64,000 nt of DNA from Pseudomonadota bacterium (GTDB lineage: Bacteria > Pseudomonadota > Alphaproteobacteria > SP197). Below the pieces are notes generated by a model. It was not told the origin of the DNA, did not search any database, and worked only from the letters and a program-made list of their open reading frames with translations. The stretch is from positions 1 to 64,000 of the forward strand of contig JBCCIS010000016.1 of NCBI GenBank assembly GCA_039028155.1, in the 5' to 3' direction. This document shows, piece by piece, positions 1 to 6,762 of this stretch (positions are counted from its first letter, which is position 1; each line of letters starts with the position of its first letter). A program made the position numbers and the translations under genes.

Positions 1-830
1 GCGGCGCAAGCCTCGGTAATCCGGAAGCCTTGCCCACGGGCATGGCCGCTGGTTGCTGTGCGGCCTGCGATGCGTGCTCGGCGTGCTGTGCCGCGTGTGA
101 CGCGTGCGGTGGCTGTGGCGGATGTTGCGGCGCAAGCCTCGACAATCCGGAAGCCTTGCCCACGGGCATGGCTGCCGGTTGCTGTGCAGCCTGCGATGCG
201 TGCTCGGCATGCTGCGCGGCCTGTGATGCCTGCGGTGCTTGTGGCGGATGCTGTGGCGCCAGCCTCGACAATCCCGACGCCAGCATGATGTTTGCGTTGC
301 GTGCCAAGCAGGATGATCAGCCGTGGTGCGACGCACATGGCGATGCCGCGGAGGAATCCGACGCGCCATGCGGCGCCAGCCTCGGTAACCCGGAAGCCGT
401 GCCGACCGGCATGGCGGCTGGTTGCTGTGCGGCGTGTGACGCGTGCTCGGCCTGTTGCGCGGCATGTGATGCCTGCGGCGGTTGCGGTGGGTGCTGTGGC
501 GCAAGCCTCGACAACCCCGAAGCTCTGCCCACGGGCATGGCTGCTGGTTGTTGTGCGGCGTGTGACGCATGCTCAGCCTGCTGTGCGGCTTGTGACGCCT
601 GTGGCGCGTGTGGTGGCTGTTGCGGTGCTAGCCTCGACAATCCCGGGGCCTTGCCGAACGCTGTAGCGGCCGGCGCCGTGCTGACTGAGGGCAGCTTCGC
701 GGTGACCGCAAACGGTACTGTCATGCCTGGACCGTCGTTCGTGATGGAAAAGACGGAACCGGGTGTTGACGCCGACACCGATCACTGGCGCTACACCTTG
801 GTTACGCCGAATGGCAAGGTCGTCGCGTGA
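1..830 (+). CDS. Cys-rich tandem-repeat protein with P460-like cytochrome C-terminus (5' partial, frame broken at 3' end)
   Basis: The reading frame is open from the window edge (frame of base 3), so the true start lies upstream. It holds four 42-residue units, each with 11 cysteines in clusters such as CCAACDACSACC, arranged as two pairs separated by a 39-residue spacer. After the last unit comes a conserved-looking stretch with PGPSFVMEK and DHWRYTLVTPNGKV, which resembles the C-terminal part of P460-type cytochromes that carry Cys-rich repeats. Those proteins continue into a CXXCH haem motif. Here the frame stops at 828-830, and that motif lies in the -1 frame (827-931). A secreted rhodanese and a cytochrome c follow on the same strand, so a periplasmic redox or metal-binding role is plausible. 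The P460 assignment comes from remembered family motifs, not a search. Confidence 0.7.
   Translation, partial: GASLGNPEALPTGMAAGCCAACDACSACCAACDACGGCGGCCGASLDNPEALPTGMAAGCCAACDACSACCAACDACGACGGCCGASLDNPDASMMFALRAKQDDQPWCDAHGDAAEESDAPCGASLGNPEAVPTGMAAGCCAACDACSACCAACDACGGCGGCCGASLDNPEALPTGMAAGCCAACDACSACCAACDACGACGGCCGASLDNPGALPNAVAAGAVLTEGSFAVTANGTVMPGPSFVMEKTEPGVDADTDHWRYTLVTPNGKVVA
30..650 (+). repeat. Coding tandem repeat: four 126-bp Cys-rich units in a 369-bp higher-order repeat
   Basis: The units start at 30, 156, 399 and 525, each 126 bp (42 codons) and in frame. Units 1 and 3 carry GGCGGCC, while units 2 and 4 carry GACGGCC, so the pair is the higher-order unit. A 117-bp spacer (282-398) separates the pairs, giving a 369-bp period. 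The first bases of the window (3-29, encoding GASLGNPEA) match the end of that spacer (372-398), so at least one more higher-order copy probably lies upstream. Third-codon positions differ between copies while the protein is kept, which suggests selection on the protein. Confidence 0.9.
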
Positions 831-931
831 CCAACGGCGATTGTCTCAAGACGATGGCGCTCTGCATCGACTGTCACACTGGTGCAGAGGTGAGTTCGCT
901 GCTCCTCATTCCCGAGGAGGATCGAAGCTGA
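827..931 (+). pseudogene. Out-of-frame haem-motif tail of the Cys-rich cytochrome
   Basis: In the -1 frame relative to the preceding gene, 827-931 encodes about 34 residues beginning VTNGDCLKTM, with CIDCH (a CXXCH haem c motif) at 863-877, and ending LLIPEEDRS before TGA at 929-931. Related P460-type cytochromes read roughly GTVFGETNG, then CXXCH, then FLPEEYR, so joining ...GKVVA to VTNG... restores the expected layout with no change in length. No slippery heptamer is visible at the junction (GTCGCGTGACC). A one-base deletion in the genome or assembly therefore looks likelier than programmed frameshifting. Confidence 0.65.
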
Positions 932-941
932 TCATCTGCCG

Positions 942-1430
942 ATGACAGAGAACATCGTCCGAAAGATCTGGGGATGGGCCGTTCGCGGCCCATCCCTTGT
1001 TTTTGCGCTGGTGCTGTTGCACGCGGTGACGGCTTATGCGGACGAAGACGGTCTGCTATCTGCACCGGATGCCTGGCAGCGGTATGGCGATGGCGAGCTG
1101 TTGATCATCGACATCCGAACGCAATCAGAATGGCGCGATACCGGTATTCCCGAAGGTGCCGGGCGATCCAGCCTGTTTCTGTCCTATGGGTTGCCCAACC
1201 TTGACTTTGTCGATGAGGTGACGGCCCTGACAGGCGGTGATCGATCGCATCCCATCGCCTTGATTTGTGCTGCCGGCGTACGATCCGCTATCGCGCATGT
1301 GCTGCTCGAAAGCGAAGGGTTTGAACAGATCTACGACATCGGCGAGGGCATGGCCGGCAGCGGCGATGGTCCCGGCTGGGTTGCCAGGGGATTGCCCGTG
1401 GAAGATTGTGGCGACTGCTCGGGGTCGTAA
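942..1430 (+). CDS. Exported rhodanese-domain protein
   Basis: A 162-residue protein with a hydrophobic N-terminal signal segment (about residues 15-33, ending AYADE) and one rhodanese fold. LIIDIRTQSEW matches the D-x-R stretch of rhodaneses, and the active-site loop is C-A-A-G-V-R-S near residue 109, so the sulfur-accepting cysteine is present. The C-terminus ends in a CGDCSGS tail with two further cysteines. Rhodaneses transfer sulfane sulfur or act as thiol relays. An exported one between a Cys-rich cytochrome and a small cytochrome c suggests periplasmic thiol or sulfur redox work, but the substrate cannot be read from sequence. It starts 11 bp after the frameshifted cytochrome tail, consistent with one transcript. 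Confidence 0.85.
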   Translation: MTENIVRKIWGWAVRGPSLVFALVLLHAVTAYADEDGLLSAPDAWQRYGDGELLIIDIRTQSEWRDTGIPEGAGRSSLFLSYGLPNLDFVDEVTALTGGDRSHPIALICAAGVRSAIAHVLLESEGFEQIYDIGEGMAGSGDGPGWVARGLPVEDCGDCSGS

Positions 1431-1516
1431 ACGTACGGCACATCGTATATGTCATGTAGGCGAAAGATCGCACTAACGTCACCGGTCTTTGAGTTCTTTC
1501 CCAACGGCGAATTTCG

Positions 1517-1903
1517 ATGAAGCTTGGCACCGCTTTAGGATCCGCTTTGGCGCTTGGGCTCGCCGCGCAGTCGGCCTGGGCAGAAGGCGACGCGGCCCAG
1601 GGTGAAAGGGTGTTCAATCGCTGCAAGGTCTGCCACACGATCGAACTGGACGGTGCGCCGAAACAAGGCCCCAATCTATTCGGTGTTTACGGAAGTCCGG
1701 CGGGTACGAATCAACCGGGGTCTCTCCATTCGGGCAAGTTGGAGCAGTCCGGTGTCATCTGGGACGACGAGACGCTGGCTGAGTTTTTGGCCGGCCCGTC
1801 CAGGTTCATCTCCGGCGTCAGAATGACCTTTCGCCTGACCCGGGACGACGACATCGCCAACGTCATCGCCTATCTGAAGGCGAACAGAGCGGAACCCGAG
1901 TAA
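1517..1903 (+). CDS. Class I c-type cytochrome, periplasmic
   Basis: A 128-residue protein. Residues 1-22 form a signal peptide ending SAWA. The haem-binding motif CKVCH is at residues 36-40, followed by GPNLFGVYG, which is typical of mitochondrial-type/c2-type cytochromes. A likely distal methionine ligand is M103 in SGVRMTF, and the C-terminal helix has the usual IANVIAYLK pattern. It should be a soluble periplasmic electron carrier. It is the third gene of a same-strand set with the Cys-rich cytochrome and the rhodanese, 86 bp after the latter. The FISGVRMTF loop departs from the common PGTKM form, so its redox potential may be unusual (inference). Confidence 0.88.
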   Translation: MKLGTALGSALALGLAAQSAWAEGDAAQGERVFNRCKVCHTIELDGAPKQGPNLFGVYGSPAGTNQPGSLHSGKLEQSGVIWDDETLAEFLAGPSRFISGVRMTFRLTRDDDIANVIAYLKANRAEPE

Positions 1904-1928
1904 GGCCTAGAGCAGATCCTGCTCCGCC

Positions 1929-3128
1929 CTAAGGACCGACCAGGAAACAGTCGGCGCTCCTGGCCTTGAGTTCGTTGCAGATGGCCTGCGCCTCGGACTG
2001 AGCCGGCATCGGTCCGGCCTGCAGGCGGTAGACCGTGCCCGTCTCACCGCCGAGATCAACCATCAGGACACGGTGGGGCAGGCCGCCCAGCAGATCCGGG
2101 AACCGGCCGGTCATGTCCTGCCAGGCCGCTTCGGCGCGGTCCTCGCTCAGATAGGCGGCAATCTGGATATAGGGGCCGCCGCCCTGTGCCGGCGCCGTCG
2201 TCGTTTCGGTTTCCACGGCGGCCGTTTCGACGGTCTCGGTCGTCTCGGTCGTCTCAACGTCGCTGTAGTCGATGGCTGTGTTCTCGCTCGTCACTTCTGT
2301 ACCGCCGTCGCCAAAGCTCGGCTCCGGCACGGATTCGGCGGTCTCAACCACCGTCACCTCTGCCGTCTCGGTCTCGATGATGTCTTCGCTCGGCGCGTCT
2401 TCCAGGATGATCTCGGCGGTTTCCGTCGTGTCTGTCGTCTCCGTCGTCTCCACCGTTTCCGGCACCAGATCGGCCGCGGCGGTCTCATCGGGCGGTCCGA
2501 GTTCGGCGAGCCGATTTGCGGCCTGCTGAATGCCCGCCTCGGCCGCAGCCGCGTAGAGCCGGCGGGCTTCGTTCAGGTCGACGTCGGTTCCCAGGCCGGT
2601 CTCATAGGCATAGCCGGCGGAAAACTGGCCCATCGGGTTGCCCGCCTCGGCAGCGCGCTGGAACCACGAGAACGCCAGATCCTGATCGCGTGCGACGCCG
2701 TCGCCGCGATGATAGGCAATACCCAGGTTGAGCTGGGCGTCCGAAAGTCCCTGGGCCGCCGACAGCGTCCACCAGTAGACCGCGCGCGAGGCGTCCTTGG
2801 GAACGCCCAGGCCCTGTTGATAGATGTTGCCCAGGTTGAACTGGGCGCCGGGGTGGCCGCCCTCGGCGGCGGCCGCGTACCATTTGGCGGCCTCGGTATA
2901 GTCGCGGCCAATGCCGCGCCCGTTCTCATAAATGATGCCCATGCCGAACTGGGCTTCCAGATTGCCTTGCTCGGCCAGCGGCTGCCATTCCGCGATCGCG
3001 GCCGCGTAGTCGCCGGCGTCATAGGCCCGCATCCCGGCCTCGAAATCCGCATGGGCCGTCGACAGCGCGAGCACGCCGGCCAGCACCACGGACACCAAAA
3101 TACCGGATCGTTTCTGCACCGATCTCAT
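1929..3128 (-). CDS. Sel1-repeat protein with C-terminal SPOR domain
   Basis: About 399 residues from ATG at 3128; a GTG six bases upstream is a possible alternative, and a GGTGGG element lies just before the ATG. Residues 1-28 are a signal peptide ending AHADF. Four Sel1 (TPR-like) repeats follow (about 45-205), seen as AQFGMGIIYENGRG, AQFNLGNIYQQGLG, AQLNLGIAYHRGDG and GQFSAGYAYETGLG. A long Thr/Glu/Val-rich spacer (about 210-315, many TTET blocks) leads to a SPOR-type domain beginning YIQIAAYLSEDRAE. Sel1 repeats mediate protein interaction and SPOR domains bind denuded peptidoglycan, so this is probably a periplasmic septum or cell-wall protein. The low-complexity spacer may vary between strains. 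Confidence 0.85.
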   Translation of the reverse strand: MRSVQKRSGILVSVVLAGVLALSTAHADFEAGMRAYDAGDYAAAIAEWQPLAEQGNLEAQFGMGIIYENGRGIGRDYTEAAKWYAAAAEGGHPGAQFNLGNIYQQGLGVPKDASRAVYWWTLSAAQGLSDAQLNLGIAYHRGDGVARDQDLAFSWFQRAAEAGNPMGQFSAGYAYETGLGTDVDLNEARRLYAAAAEAGIQQAANRLAELGPPDETAAADLVPETVETTETTDTTETAEIILEDAPSEDIIETETAEVTVVETAESVPEPSFGDGGTEVTSENTAIDYSDVETTETTETVETAAVETETTTAPAQGGGPYIQIAAYLSEDRAEAAWQDMTGRFPDLLGGLPHRVLMVDLGGETGTVYRLQAGPMPAQSEAQAICNELKARSADCFLVGP

Positions 3129-3203
3129 ACCCACCTGTGTGTCACCCCAGGCGCTAAACTACCCCAGGGATGGCCCCGGGCCAACGGGACTTCGGCAGGC
3201 TGT

Positions 3204-4871
3204 TTATAACTTTGGTGCGCCGGCAAGGTTGCTGATGGCGCGTACCCTGAGGGTTTCCCGCTTGCCGCGAACCGCCAGTTCATGAGGCAACCCGGGCATC
3301 GCCGCGAGGCCCGCCAGCTCCACCACGCGTTCAGAGACAACGAGATCGCAGCTGAGGTCTTTGGTCGCCCCCTCCAGACGGCTCGCCGTGTTCACGACAT
3401 CGCCGATCGCGGTCATGTTCATGGTTTCGCCATAGCCCATCTCGCCGATCACGGCCGGTCCGGCATGGAGGCCGATCCCGAGTCGCAACGGCTGGTCGAT
3501 CTCCCTGGCGAGCGAGCGATTGAGTGCATCGAGAGCCTGGCCCATCGCGGTCGTCGCGTCGAGCGCCTGGCGGCAGCCATCGTCGACCGCGCTATCGACG
3601 CCGAACAGGGCCATGACGCCGTCACCAATGAACTTGTCGATCTGACCGCCGGCTCCCTCGATGGCGTGACCCATGGCTTCGAAGTACCGGTTCAGGACAA
3701 ACACGGTGTCATAGGGAAGCTTGGCTTCCGACAGGGTGGTGAAACCGCGCAGGTCGGCGAACAGCACGGCGATCTCCTGCTCCCGCCCGGCGCCGGCCGG
3801 GCGCGGCCTCGTCACCGCGTCAGCTGGACCGGCATGCGCCGGCAGCAGGGGCGTGACCGCGAGATCGGCGGTCGGGCGGATCTGGCAGGCAAGGCGAACA
3901 TGGGGCGGATTGCCGATACGCTCCAGAACCTTGGTTTCGTTTGCGTCGGGCGGTTCCACATCGTCGCGCCCGTGACCCAGGCGAACCCGGCAGGTTGAGC
4001 AGCGACCGCGTCCGCCGCAGACCGAGGCGTGGGGAATGCCGGCCATGCGGCTTGTCTCCAGAACAGTCGCGCCAGGCATGACGTCCACCAGTCGACCTTC
4101 CGGGTAGGTCAGTTGTGGCGCCTTGCGACGCGCGGCGAGGAGGGCGCGCAGCCAACGCGCCAGCAGTATCAGCGCGACAAGCGCCACCGTGCCGGCGATG
4201 GTCCAGAGCTGCGCCTGCCTCATCAAGGCGGTCAACTCGTTGAAGACGCTGCCGGCGCCGGTCGACGCGATGAGATCGGGCAGCCATTCGGGGTCTTGAG
4301 CAAGGCGCGCGACATCGATGCCGGCGCCGACAAATCCGGCGAGGGCGAGGATCGGGATCAGCAGCGCGACGCCGAACGCGCCCCACTGCCAGCGCGCATA
4401 CCACGGCTTCAGACGCAGCCAGAAGTGGACGCCCAAACAACCATGCAGCCAGGCGGTCACGATCAGGACCGACTGCAAGACACCCTTCCACGGTGCGTCG
4501 ACCCACAGTGCGTAGACAACATAAGGATAGGTGTCATTGACGCCGAACAGTTCGTGACCGCCGCGCGTTGCCGCAATGTGTTCGGCGACAAGCAGCGGGA
4601 TGGTCAGCCCCAACAGCAATTGCGCCCAATCGCGCGCGGGCATGGCCAGGCTGCTGCGTTGGTAGAGCGACCAAAAAACCAGTCCCAGATGCAGGATCAG
4701 AGCCGCGCAAAGCACGATTGTGCCGGGCGGGCTGCGCCAGACCCAGTCGAAGACGCCCCGCCCAGCCTCCATCCAGGCTAGCGAATGGATACCGAGCGCG
4801 TGGTTGATCAGATGGCTGGCCAGGAAGACCATCAGCACCAGCCCGGAAACCAGCCTGATGCGTGCGATCAT
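3204..4871 (-). CDS. Membrane-bound 2Fe-2S ferredoxin-class III adenylate/guanylate cyclase fusion
   Basis: A 555-residue protein in three parts. Residues 1-245 are a membrane region with about five or six helices and several histidines inside or near them (H20, H24, H29, H61, H98, H143, H149), recalling di-haem cytochrome b or succinate dehydrogenase anchors. Residues about 255-340 are a plant-type [2Fe-2S] ferredoxin domain with C285-x5-C291-x2-C294 and C329. Residues about 365-550 are a class III cyclase domain with metal aspartates D373 (FADLRGF) and D417 (KFIGDGVM). The layout suggests a cyclase controlled by membrane redox state (inference). Its start overlaps the stop of the upstream secreted-protein gene by 4 bp, so the two are translationally coupled. 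Confidence 0.87.
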   Translation of the reverse strand: MIARIRLVSGLVLMVFLASHLINHALGIHSLAWMEAGRGVFDWVWRSPPGTIVLCAALILHLGLVFWSLYQRSSLAMPARDWAQLLLGLTIPLLVAEHIAATRGGHELFGVNDTYPYVVYALWVDAPWKGVLQSVLIVTAWLHGCLGVHFWLRLKPWYARWQWGAFGVALLIPILALAGFVGAGIDVARLAQDPEWLPDLIASTGAGSVFNELTALMRQAQLWTIAGTVALVALILLARWLRALLAARRKAPQLTYPEGRLVDVMPGATVLETSRMAGIPHASVCGGRGRCSTCRVRLGHGRDDVEPPDANETKVLERIGNPPHVRLACQIRPTADLAVTPLLPAHAGPADAVTRPRPAGAGREQEIAVLFADLRGFTTLSEAKLPYDTVFVLNRYFEAMGHAIEGAGGQIDKFIGDGVMALFGVDSAVDDGCRQALDATTAMGQALDALNRSLAREIDQPLRLGIGLHAGPAVIGEMGYGETMNMTAIGDVVNTASRLEGATKDLSCDLVVSERVVELAGLAAMPGLPHELAVRGKRETLRVRAISNLAGAPKL

Positions 4872-5622: not shown

Positions 5623-6762
5623 ATGAACGAGACATCCGACCTTATGGCGGGACAATTCCACGTTGCACATGCCAGCGCGGAGACGTGGCAGCAGGCTGCC
5701 CGATCCGTTGCAGAAGTCTTGGGCGATCGCGATGACGATACGCTCGGGTTCGTCTACGTCACCGATCATTTCGCTGACGCGCTGGGCGAGGTCGCCGGGT
5801 TCCTGGCTGCCGCGACCGGCGTCACGAGCTGGTGCGGCACCGTCGGCATCGGCATCTGCGCGACCGGCAAGGAGTACTTTGACCGGCCGGCGGTCGCGGC
5901 GATGACCGGCCGGTTCCCCGACGATGCGCTGAACCTGTTCACCAGCGCAGAGGAAGCGGTCCGCAGTTACGACGACCGACGCGGTGGCGCGATGGGGCAG
6001 GGCAGCTTCGCCGTCGTCCACGGCGACCCACGCATGCCGAATTTGGTCGAGGCAATCACCAAGCTGGCGCGCGATACCGACGGCTACCTGGTCGGCGGGC
6101 TCAGTTCATCGCGTGGCGTCACCATGCAGGTGGCGGGCCGGCCAATCGAACGCGAGATCTCCGGCGTCTTGTTCGACAGCGCCGTGCGCGTTACCACCGG
6201 CCTGACGCAGGGTTGTGTGCCGTTGGGCGGCATTCACCAGGTGACCAAAGTCGACGAAAACGTCGTCCATCGTCTCAACGACCGCCCGGCGATGGATGTG
6301 TTCGTCGAGGAGTTGGCGATCGAGGGTATCTCCGATCCACGGCAGCTTTCCGGCTCGCTGCACGTCGGCTTGCCGGTTTCCGGTTCTGATACCGGCGACT
6401 ACCTGGTGCGCAATCTGGTCGGTATCGAGCCCAACACCGGCGCCGTGGTGATCGGCGAGCGGGTCGGCATGGGCGATGCCCTGATGTTCTGTCGCCGCGA
6501 CCGTGCTGCGGCCGAGGCGGATCTCAAACGCATGGTCAACGATGCGCGCAAACGCGCGGGCAATGTGGCCGGCGGTCTCTATTTCAGCTGCCTGGCGCGC
6601 GGCCCCAACATGTTTGACGGCGCCCAAAGCGAGATGGACATCGTGCGCGAGGCCTTGGGCGACGTGCCGTTGGTCGGCTTCTTCGGCAATGGTGAGATTT
6701 CGTTCGATCGTCTCTATGCCTATACCGGGGTTCTCACCCTGTTCGAGACAGCCGACGGGTAG
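5623..6762 (+). CDS. FIST N- and C-domain protein
   Basis: A 379-residue soluble protein. The N-terminal half matches the FIST_N pattern: DDTLGFVYVTDHF, a GVTSWCGTVGIG segment and DGYLVGGLSSSRG. The C-terminal half matches FIST_C, with a VHRLNDRPAMDVFVEEL stretch, LFCRRD-like MFCRRD, and the closing GDVPLVGFFGNGEI plus YTGVLTLF. FIST domains are predicted small-ligand sensors, possibly for amino acids, often linked to signalling proteins. No output domain is fused here. The neighbour 10 bp downstream is a HAD-IIA phosphatase, probably co-transcribed. An in-frame ATG at 5644 is an alternative start. Confidence 0.88.
   Translation: MNETSDLMAGQFHVAHASAETWQQAARSVAEVLGDRDDDTLGFVYVTDHFADALGEVAGFLAAATGVTSWCGTVGIGICATGKEYFDRPAVAAMTGRFPDDALNLFTSAEEAVRSYDDRRGGAMGQGSFAVVHGDPRMPNLVEAITKLARDTDGYLVGGLSSSRGVTMQVAGRPIEREISGVLFDSAVRVTTGLTQGCVPLGGIHQVTKVDENVVHRLNDRPAMDVFVEELAIEGISDPRQLSGSLHVGLPVSGSDTGDYLVRNLVGIEPNTGAVVIGERVGMGDALMFCRRDRAAAEADLKRMVNDARKRAGNVAGGLYFSCLARGPNMFDGAQSEMDIVREALGDVPLVGFFGNGEISFDRLYAYTGVLTLFETADG

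Follow-up and report, generated by a model that had tools for sequence, protein, structure and literature searches.

An exported-type cysteine-repeat gene with a decayed P460 domain and its DUF6969-associated relatives

The Cys-repeat gene at the contig edge

The window, i.e., the whole 64,000-nt stretch of DNA that was analysed, begins at base 1 of contig C16 of the draft genome G000 and opens inside a Cys-repeat gene (Table 1), whose reading frame runs without a stop from nucleotide 3 until it meets the TGA at 828-830. Its 5' part is thus missing: the gene must extend beyond the contig edge, and the TTG at position 30 is no real start. As a preliminary description of this DNA had proposed, the part present contains four 42-residue units of 11 Cys each, which the unit coordinates resolve into two pairs with a period of 123 aa (369 bp). 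Units 1 and 3 (A type) share SLGNPEA and CGGCGG, while units 2 and 4 (B type) share SLDNPEA and CGACGG. The four units account for 44 of the 46 Cys of the 275-aa frame, the other two lying in the linker. Thiols are accordingly dense in the repeats, in CxxC and CC arrangements, with a Cys at mostly every third residue. Further downstream than the features of Table 1, the window encodes a membrane protein with a 2Fe-2S ferredoxin domain and an adenylate/guanylate cyclase domain (3204-4871, minus strand), as well as a FIST-domain protein (5623-6762, plus strand), homologues of which are also found near the Cys-repeat gene in genomes G007 and G012 (L114, L031).

Table 1. Features of the Cys-repeat gene and its conserved neighbours at the start of the window
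Feature	Position	Strand	Length, match or comparison
Cys unit 1, A type, GASLGNPEALPTGMAAGCCAACDACSACCAACDACGGCGGCC, 11 Cys	3..128	+	42 aa
Cys unit 2, B type, GASLDNPEAL...CGACGGCC, 11 Cys	129..254	+	42 aa
Linker between pairs, GASLDNPDASMMFALRAKQDDQPWCDAHGDAAEESDAPC; without the CxVPR motif of the relatives' mid-domain	255..371	+	39 aa
Cys unit 3, A type, 11 Cys	372..497	+	42 aa
Cys unit 4, B type, 11 Cys	498..623	+	42 aa
Start of a fifth unit (GASLDNPGALPNAVAAG) merging into the P460 remnant; site of the ~75-aa P460 loss	624..671	+	unit-like up to AAG, then similar to AGAVLAKDSF of L029
P460 domain remnant, ending at the in-frame TGA (828-830); Glu in place of the Lys at the cross-link position	672..830	+	
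P460 C-terminal end (VTNGDCLKTMALCIDCHTGAEVSSLLLIPEEDRS, with CxxCH), read in a frame shifted by one base	827..931	+	dN/dS ~0.9 versus L029
Exported rhodanese-domain protein, conserved family neighbour	942..1430	+	PF00581
Exported mono-haem cytochrome c, conserved neighbour	1517..1903	+	PF00034

Selection on the repeats

A comparison of the first pair of units with the second over 88 aligned codons gives 47 synonymous changes for a single nonsynonymous one (binomial P ~2e-28), with dS saturated and dN at 0.005, in agreement with the earlier remark that the DNA differs at third positions while the protein is kept. Since 47 of 48 changes are synonymous, the region is coding, and GC-rich DNA read by chance or in the wrong frame is ruled out as an explanation. 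In addition, identical codons are found at 38 of 85 degenerate same-residue positions between the pairs, versus 37.5 expected from genome codon usage. With codon identity at chance and nearly all change synonymous, the repeat protein has been held while the memory of the DNA was lost and is, as judged from its codons, under very strong selection. Part of this record could be old, as the conservation may date mainly from before a recent loss of P460 (see below). Units within one pair are somewhat more alike in their codons than expected by chance, which suggests local conversion. Among eight other genes of the family, repeated-codon identity exceeds chance in two, most of them being at the chance level. 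Selection for codon scrambling was also considered for the window and is unsupported, codon identity being at chance and not below it.

The repeat-P460 family of Alphaproteobacteria

The window gene is an orthologue of alphaproteobacterial repeat-P460 proteins, and this family and locus assignment is well supported. The relatives share a layout in which a signal peptide is followed by Cys repeats, in nearly all cases a C-x-[VI]-P-R motif, further Cys repeats and, finally, a P460-type domain with CxxCH. The C-x-[VI]-P-R motif is absent from the part of the window gene that is present, the 5' part being beyond the contig end. The relatives' repeats are of the NPCAA, CGAC or CCAACDAC types and hold about 20 to 100 Cys, and the CCAACDACSACC type of the window is recognisable as a genus-level variant of the NPCAA/CGAC repeats. 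Homologues that pair Cys repeats with a P460 domain and a signal peptide therefore exist, and the refutation named in the preliminary description, the lack of any such pairing, fails. A close relative is found in an Alphaproteobacteria MAG (JANQGO010000243.1). Among 385 sampled genomes of the class, 55 match the query, 42 of them with both repeats and P460, and P460 fusions were found in this class only within the phylum sample.

Full-length members match PF16694 (1e-10 to 5e-4), the cytochrome P460/c'-beta family. The window's relatives end in this domain, with its CxxCH and fold and with a conserved Lys that aligns to the cross-link position. The model of the relative L029 has a pLDDT above 90 over most of this domain, and cytochrome c'-beta structures (top 6hih/7zqz) are all that it significantly matches in the PDB. 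The alphaproteobacterial family nonetheless differs from known P460 cytochromes by the 20 to 100 Cys that precede the domain, the members covered by a review (PMC11928373) not being described there as Cys-rich fusions, and by a Gly in place of the distal carboxylate of NeP460/McP460, as read from one weak alignment. Of the Pfam, NCBIfam and PHROG models, none covers the repeats themselves; the one exception, a match to Cornifin in a single member, is of low complexity and below threshold. Searches of PLSDB and PHROG gave no match, so that plasmid spread and phage origin are unsupported, and a literature search, with subscription journals largely outside its reach, found no paper on NPCAA repeats, on DUF6969, or on P460 with Cys-rich repeats or FGE. 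Of note, second P460-type paralogues, devoid of Cys repeats and with a FSGDPDEPRRHTRV-like N-terminus, are present in G001, G012 and G013 (L014, L012 and L013) and absent from G000 at the thresholds used.

Decay of the P460 domain in the window copy

The window copy has lost half of this domain. When compared with L029, it lacks about 75 residues from the N-terminal half of P460, THGGRFVNNYA among them, and the remnant joins the start of the fifth unit at AAG. A complete beta-sheet P460 domain with an in-frame CxxCH is present in L029 and absent from the window copy; the window protein has no Pfam match, and PF16694 is unmatched anywhere in the G000 genome. The remnant has 34 positions that are conserved in at least 80% of relatives; the window departs from the conserved residue at 11 of them, L029 at none. 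The changed residues include the Lys of AKDSF, which is invariant in A1 relatives and a Glu here. This Lys aligns, in a weak alignment (E 0.01), to a Met of NeCP-beta (7s5o), which we take to be Met79, given as the cross-link position in PMC11928373. Moreover, dN/dS versus L029 is 0.23 before the frameshift and 0.92 beyond it, the values for the rhodanese, the cytochrome c and the FIST protein being 0.14, 0.12 and 0.04, respectively. The dN/dS of the tail and the changes at conserved residues together indicate that the haem domain has decayed, the repeats still being constrained. The label "cytochrome" given in the preliminary description hence suits the relatives, whose Cys repeats do carry a P460-type domain; with the N-terminal half missing and a frameshift before CxxCH, it does not describe the window's product.

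The deletion and the frameshift are both seen in a single draft assembly of 118 contigs, at a contig end. They could thus be sequencing or assembly errors that hide a Cys-repeat P460 cytochrome as intact as the one in the same-genus genome G001, an explanation in keeping with a contig end caused by the repeat itself and with a P460 tail that is intact to its stop in the other frame. This is improbable, however, because an assembly error would not make the remnant diverge at conserved residues and because the missing half has no match elsewhere in the window's genome. In addition, mismatches to either parent are scattered over the junction between repeat and P460, where the stretch in common is short; a De Bruijn misjoin is not supported, as a k-mer assembler would find no long identical stretch there. 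A programmed frameshift was rejected as a lead, since another broken P460, in a repeat-P460 gene of G042 (L090, contig C94, 3127-3871), is shifted at a different place.

Alternatively, the whole gene could be a pseudogene of a repeat-P460 cytochrome on its way out, with the repeats a mere leftover. The loss of about 75 residues, the frameshift before CxxCH, the dN/dS of ~0.9 in the tail, the 11 of 34 altered residues, against none in L029, and the reduction of the locus to fragments in the same-family genome G003 would all fit. We nevertheless regard this as unlikely, although less so than an assembly error. Drift as free as that of the P460 tail would predict tens of amino-acid differences between the two pairs, in which a single nonsynonymous change and no stop are found; the C-terminus of the adjacent FGE-like protein is 98% identical to that of G001; and G007 has an intact Cys protein that lacks P460. 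Loss of the haem domain from a repeat protein still under constraint therefore remains our preferred reading. An AlphaFold model of the window protein has a pLDDT of 45, a low confidence from which no structural claim on the repeat is drawn.

The locus and its neighbours

The family locus has a conserved order, namely DUF6969, an FGE-sulfatase-like gene, the divergent Cys-repeat gene with or without P460, rhodanese and cytochrome c. In the relatives, the Cys-repeat gene is divergent from the FGE-sulfatase-like gene (PF03781), with DUF6969 (PF22308) next to it. The window gene belongs to such a syntenic locus with Cys repeats, DUF6969, FGE-like protein, rhodanese and cytochrome c. Downstream, synteny with G001 extends over the rhodanese (83% identity), cytochrome c (82%) and FIST protein (96%). 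Upstream, the partners are found on another contig of G000, C62, whose left end carries the C-terminal 108 residues of the FGE-like protein (98% identity to G001, L030), followed by DUF6969. A single assembly gap at the repeat thus most likely separates C62 from C16. A YHS-domain protein, with a score below the Pfam cut-off, is also encoded near DUF6969 on C62 (L106, 2046-2594). In the same-family genome G003, the locus (L089, contig C10, 3753-4493) is down to fragments of DUF6969, P460 and rhodanese.

Neither the FGE-like gene nor the rhodanese gene is universal, as they are found at 14 and 7 of 31 loci, respectively. The divergent neighbour in the relatives and on C62 belongs to the FGE/SUMF1 family (PF03781). 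Canonical FGE has a C-x4-C arrangement. The FGE-like subfamily instead has a CxxC within an invariant GGSWDDxGCG[VI]CR near its C-terminus. The Cys protein was also considered as an FGE target and this was rejected, its motif being C-x-[VI]-P-R (CxxPR) and not CxPxR.

DUF6969 and stand-alone Cys proteins

DUF6969 is present in about a quarter (90 of 385) of the sampled alphaproteobacterial genomes, and in 38 of 42 genomes with repeat-P460 proteins versus 52 of 343 others (Fisher P ~4e-23, phylogeny not corrected for). DUF6969 also accompanies Cys proteins that lack the haem domain. In G007, a sister genome of the same family assembled in two contigs, the locus consists of DUF6969, the FGE-like gene and a Cys protein with its own stop (24 Cys in frame), with P460, rhodanese and cytochrome c all missing. 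Small exported Cys proteins that stand alone likewise adjoin DUF6969 at four loci (L111, L112, L115 and L116) and repeat-P460 genes at three (L078, L083 and L087). NPC-type proteins, nearby or elsewhere in the genome, are found in 6 of 17 DUF6969 genomes without P460 versus 0 of 17 genomes without DUF6969. In the phylum sample, a Cys-repeat ORF lies within ~1.5 kb of about 8 of 20 DUF6969 loci versus 0 of 30 control stretches, by a fixed rule, although one designed around these repeats. Outside the class, the Cys-repeat proteins next to DUF6969 carry a different haem domain as fusion partner, a SoxA/TsdA-type cytochrome c, recognised by sequence in L138, L141, L143 and L144; the match to PF21342 was tested for a protein of G724 and for L103, the latter having no DUF6969 nearby. 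To judge from this distribution, the conserved core of the system is formed by the Cys repeats rather than by the haem domain, with DUF6969 and the FGE-like protein as partners.

Invariant His, Asp and Glu residues, found across 44 DUF6969 sequences, suggest that DUF6969 is a metalloenzyme. In G724 (L155, contig C4, 4500-10500), MNIO, DUF2063, DoxX, a small exported CGAK-repeat protein with 11 Cys and DUF6969 are encoded in a row (1081-4659 of the locus). This row ties DUF6969 to clusters of the bufferin/oxazolin type, the link to MNIO and copper being made at this one locus. G000 has a separate MNIO-DUF2063-DoxX set on contig C9, with a YHS-domain protein beside it (L156, 78000-84500).

Proposed function and comparison with known systems

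The Cys-repeat system is widespread and apparently undescribed, and probably serves the extracytoplasmic handling of metal ions such as copper. Our tentative model, which we rate at slightly less than even odds, is that the exported protein buffers metal, probably copper, through its thiolates, that DUF6969 and the FGE-like protein are its partners, and that the haem module, decayed here, is optional. The protein would be exported via its signal peptide, and the CxxC and CC thiols would capture soft metal ions, Cu(I) being the likeliest, so as to form a periplasmic buffer akin to bufferins or metallothioneins. DUF6969 and, sometimes, the FGE-like protein may act on or load these thiols, while the haem-c domain, which is P460 in Alphaproteobacteria and of the SoxA/TsdA type elsewhere, could form an optional redox module together with rhodanese and cytochrome c. 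In the window lineage, the haem domain has decayed while the repeats stayed selected. Metal binding by the repeats is plausible, and nothing suggests that they bind haem.

We infer a copper thiolate buffer from the presence of DUF6969 at the MNIO cluster of G724 and from what is reported for bufferins, since bufferin/oxazolin products chelate copper, fusions of Buf1, cytochrome c and FGE-sulfatase are reported, and FGE is described as a copper enzyme (PMC12452194). Like these MNIO-modified, exported, copper-chelating proteins (Buf_EGKCG/oxazolins), the window family is proteobacterial and has a signal peptide, many Cys and repeats; fusions to cytochrome c and FGE-sulfatase (PMC12452194) and a DUF6969 gene beside such a cluster in G724 are further points in common. 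In contrast, no MNIO (PF05114) is encoded at the window locus, and MNIO is absent from 15 of 23 tested genomes and from the recurrent neighbours of the family loci. The repeats also differ, being of the NPCAA/CGAC/CCAACDAC types and not EGKCG or DUF2282. Metallothioneins share the high Cys content and the CxxC and CC patterns, but the Cys-repeat protein is exported and not cytosolic, its repeats are much longer and it has no Pfam metallothionein match.

The repeats would also suit disulphide-linked or persulphide-carrying proteins. The main functional rival to a metal buffer is a sulphur (persulphide) carrier or relay acting with rhodanese and cytochromes, much as SoxYZ does for SoxA/TsdA. Rhodanese genes beside several loci, GGCGG-like stretches in units 1 and 3, and NPCAA repeats fused to SoxA/TsdA-type cytochromes c (PF21342) beside DUF6969 in other classes would be in line with such a role. 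The SoxA/TsdA-type domain, a haem domain distinct from P460, is absent from the window locus. Rhodanese, however, is limited to 7 of 31 loci, sulphur genes are lacking around the G007 gene and the stand-alone versions, and no sox operon was seen beside the loci in a non-systematic look, all of which makes a sulphur carrier rather unlikely. Least probable of all is a surface protein whose role is structural or disulphide-linked and has nothing to do with metal: the simple Ala/Gly/Cys composition and the low-confidence fold of the repeat region would suit it, whereas the tight association with DUF6969, bearing invariant residues of the metal-ligand type, and with the MNIO cluster in G724 would not be expected.

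An extension of the metal-buffer model, possible but more doubtful than the model itself, is that exported proteins with NPCAA, CGAC and CCAACDAC repeats form a class not yet described, with DUF6969 as the hallmark enzyme that modifies or metallates them. FGE-like proteins and MNIO would then be alternative co-maturases, and the c-type haem domains (P460 or SoxA/TsdA) would serve as interchangeable modules for output. The window lineage would be shedding its haem module, with the protein sequence of the repeat near-absolutely constrained. DUF6969, for which no paper was found, in any case gains a candidate substrate or partner in exported proteins with up to ~100 Cys. Should buffering of copper or other soft metals be combined with post-translational modification, these proteins would make up a sizeable bacterial metallophore family and offer a clue to why some P460-type cytochromes sit tethered to thiol-rich arms.

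Related repeats are also seen in other contexts. In G246 (L129, contig C3), an NPC-type repeat precedes a domain that resembles, by eye, a rhodanese-like/DUF442 phosphatase. In G574 (L104, contig C61, 3906-5043), two adjacent genes encode Cys repeats of the NPCNPCSMKKM type, one of them with a SoxA/TsdA-type cytochrome domain; DUF6969 was not seen on this contig, and the two genes adjoin one for a multi-haem-like protein.
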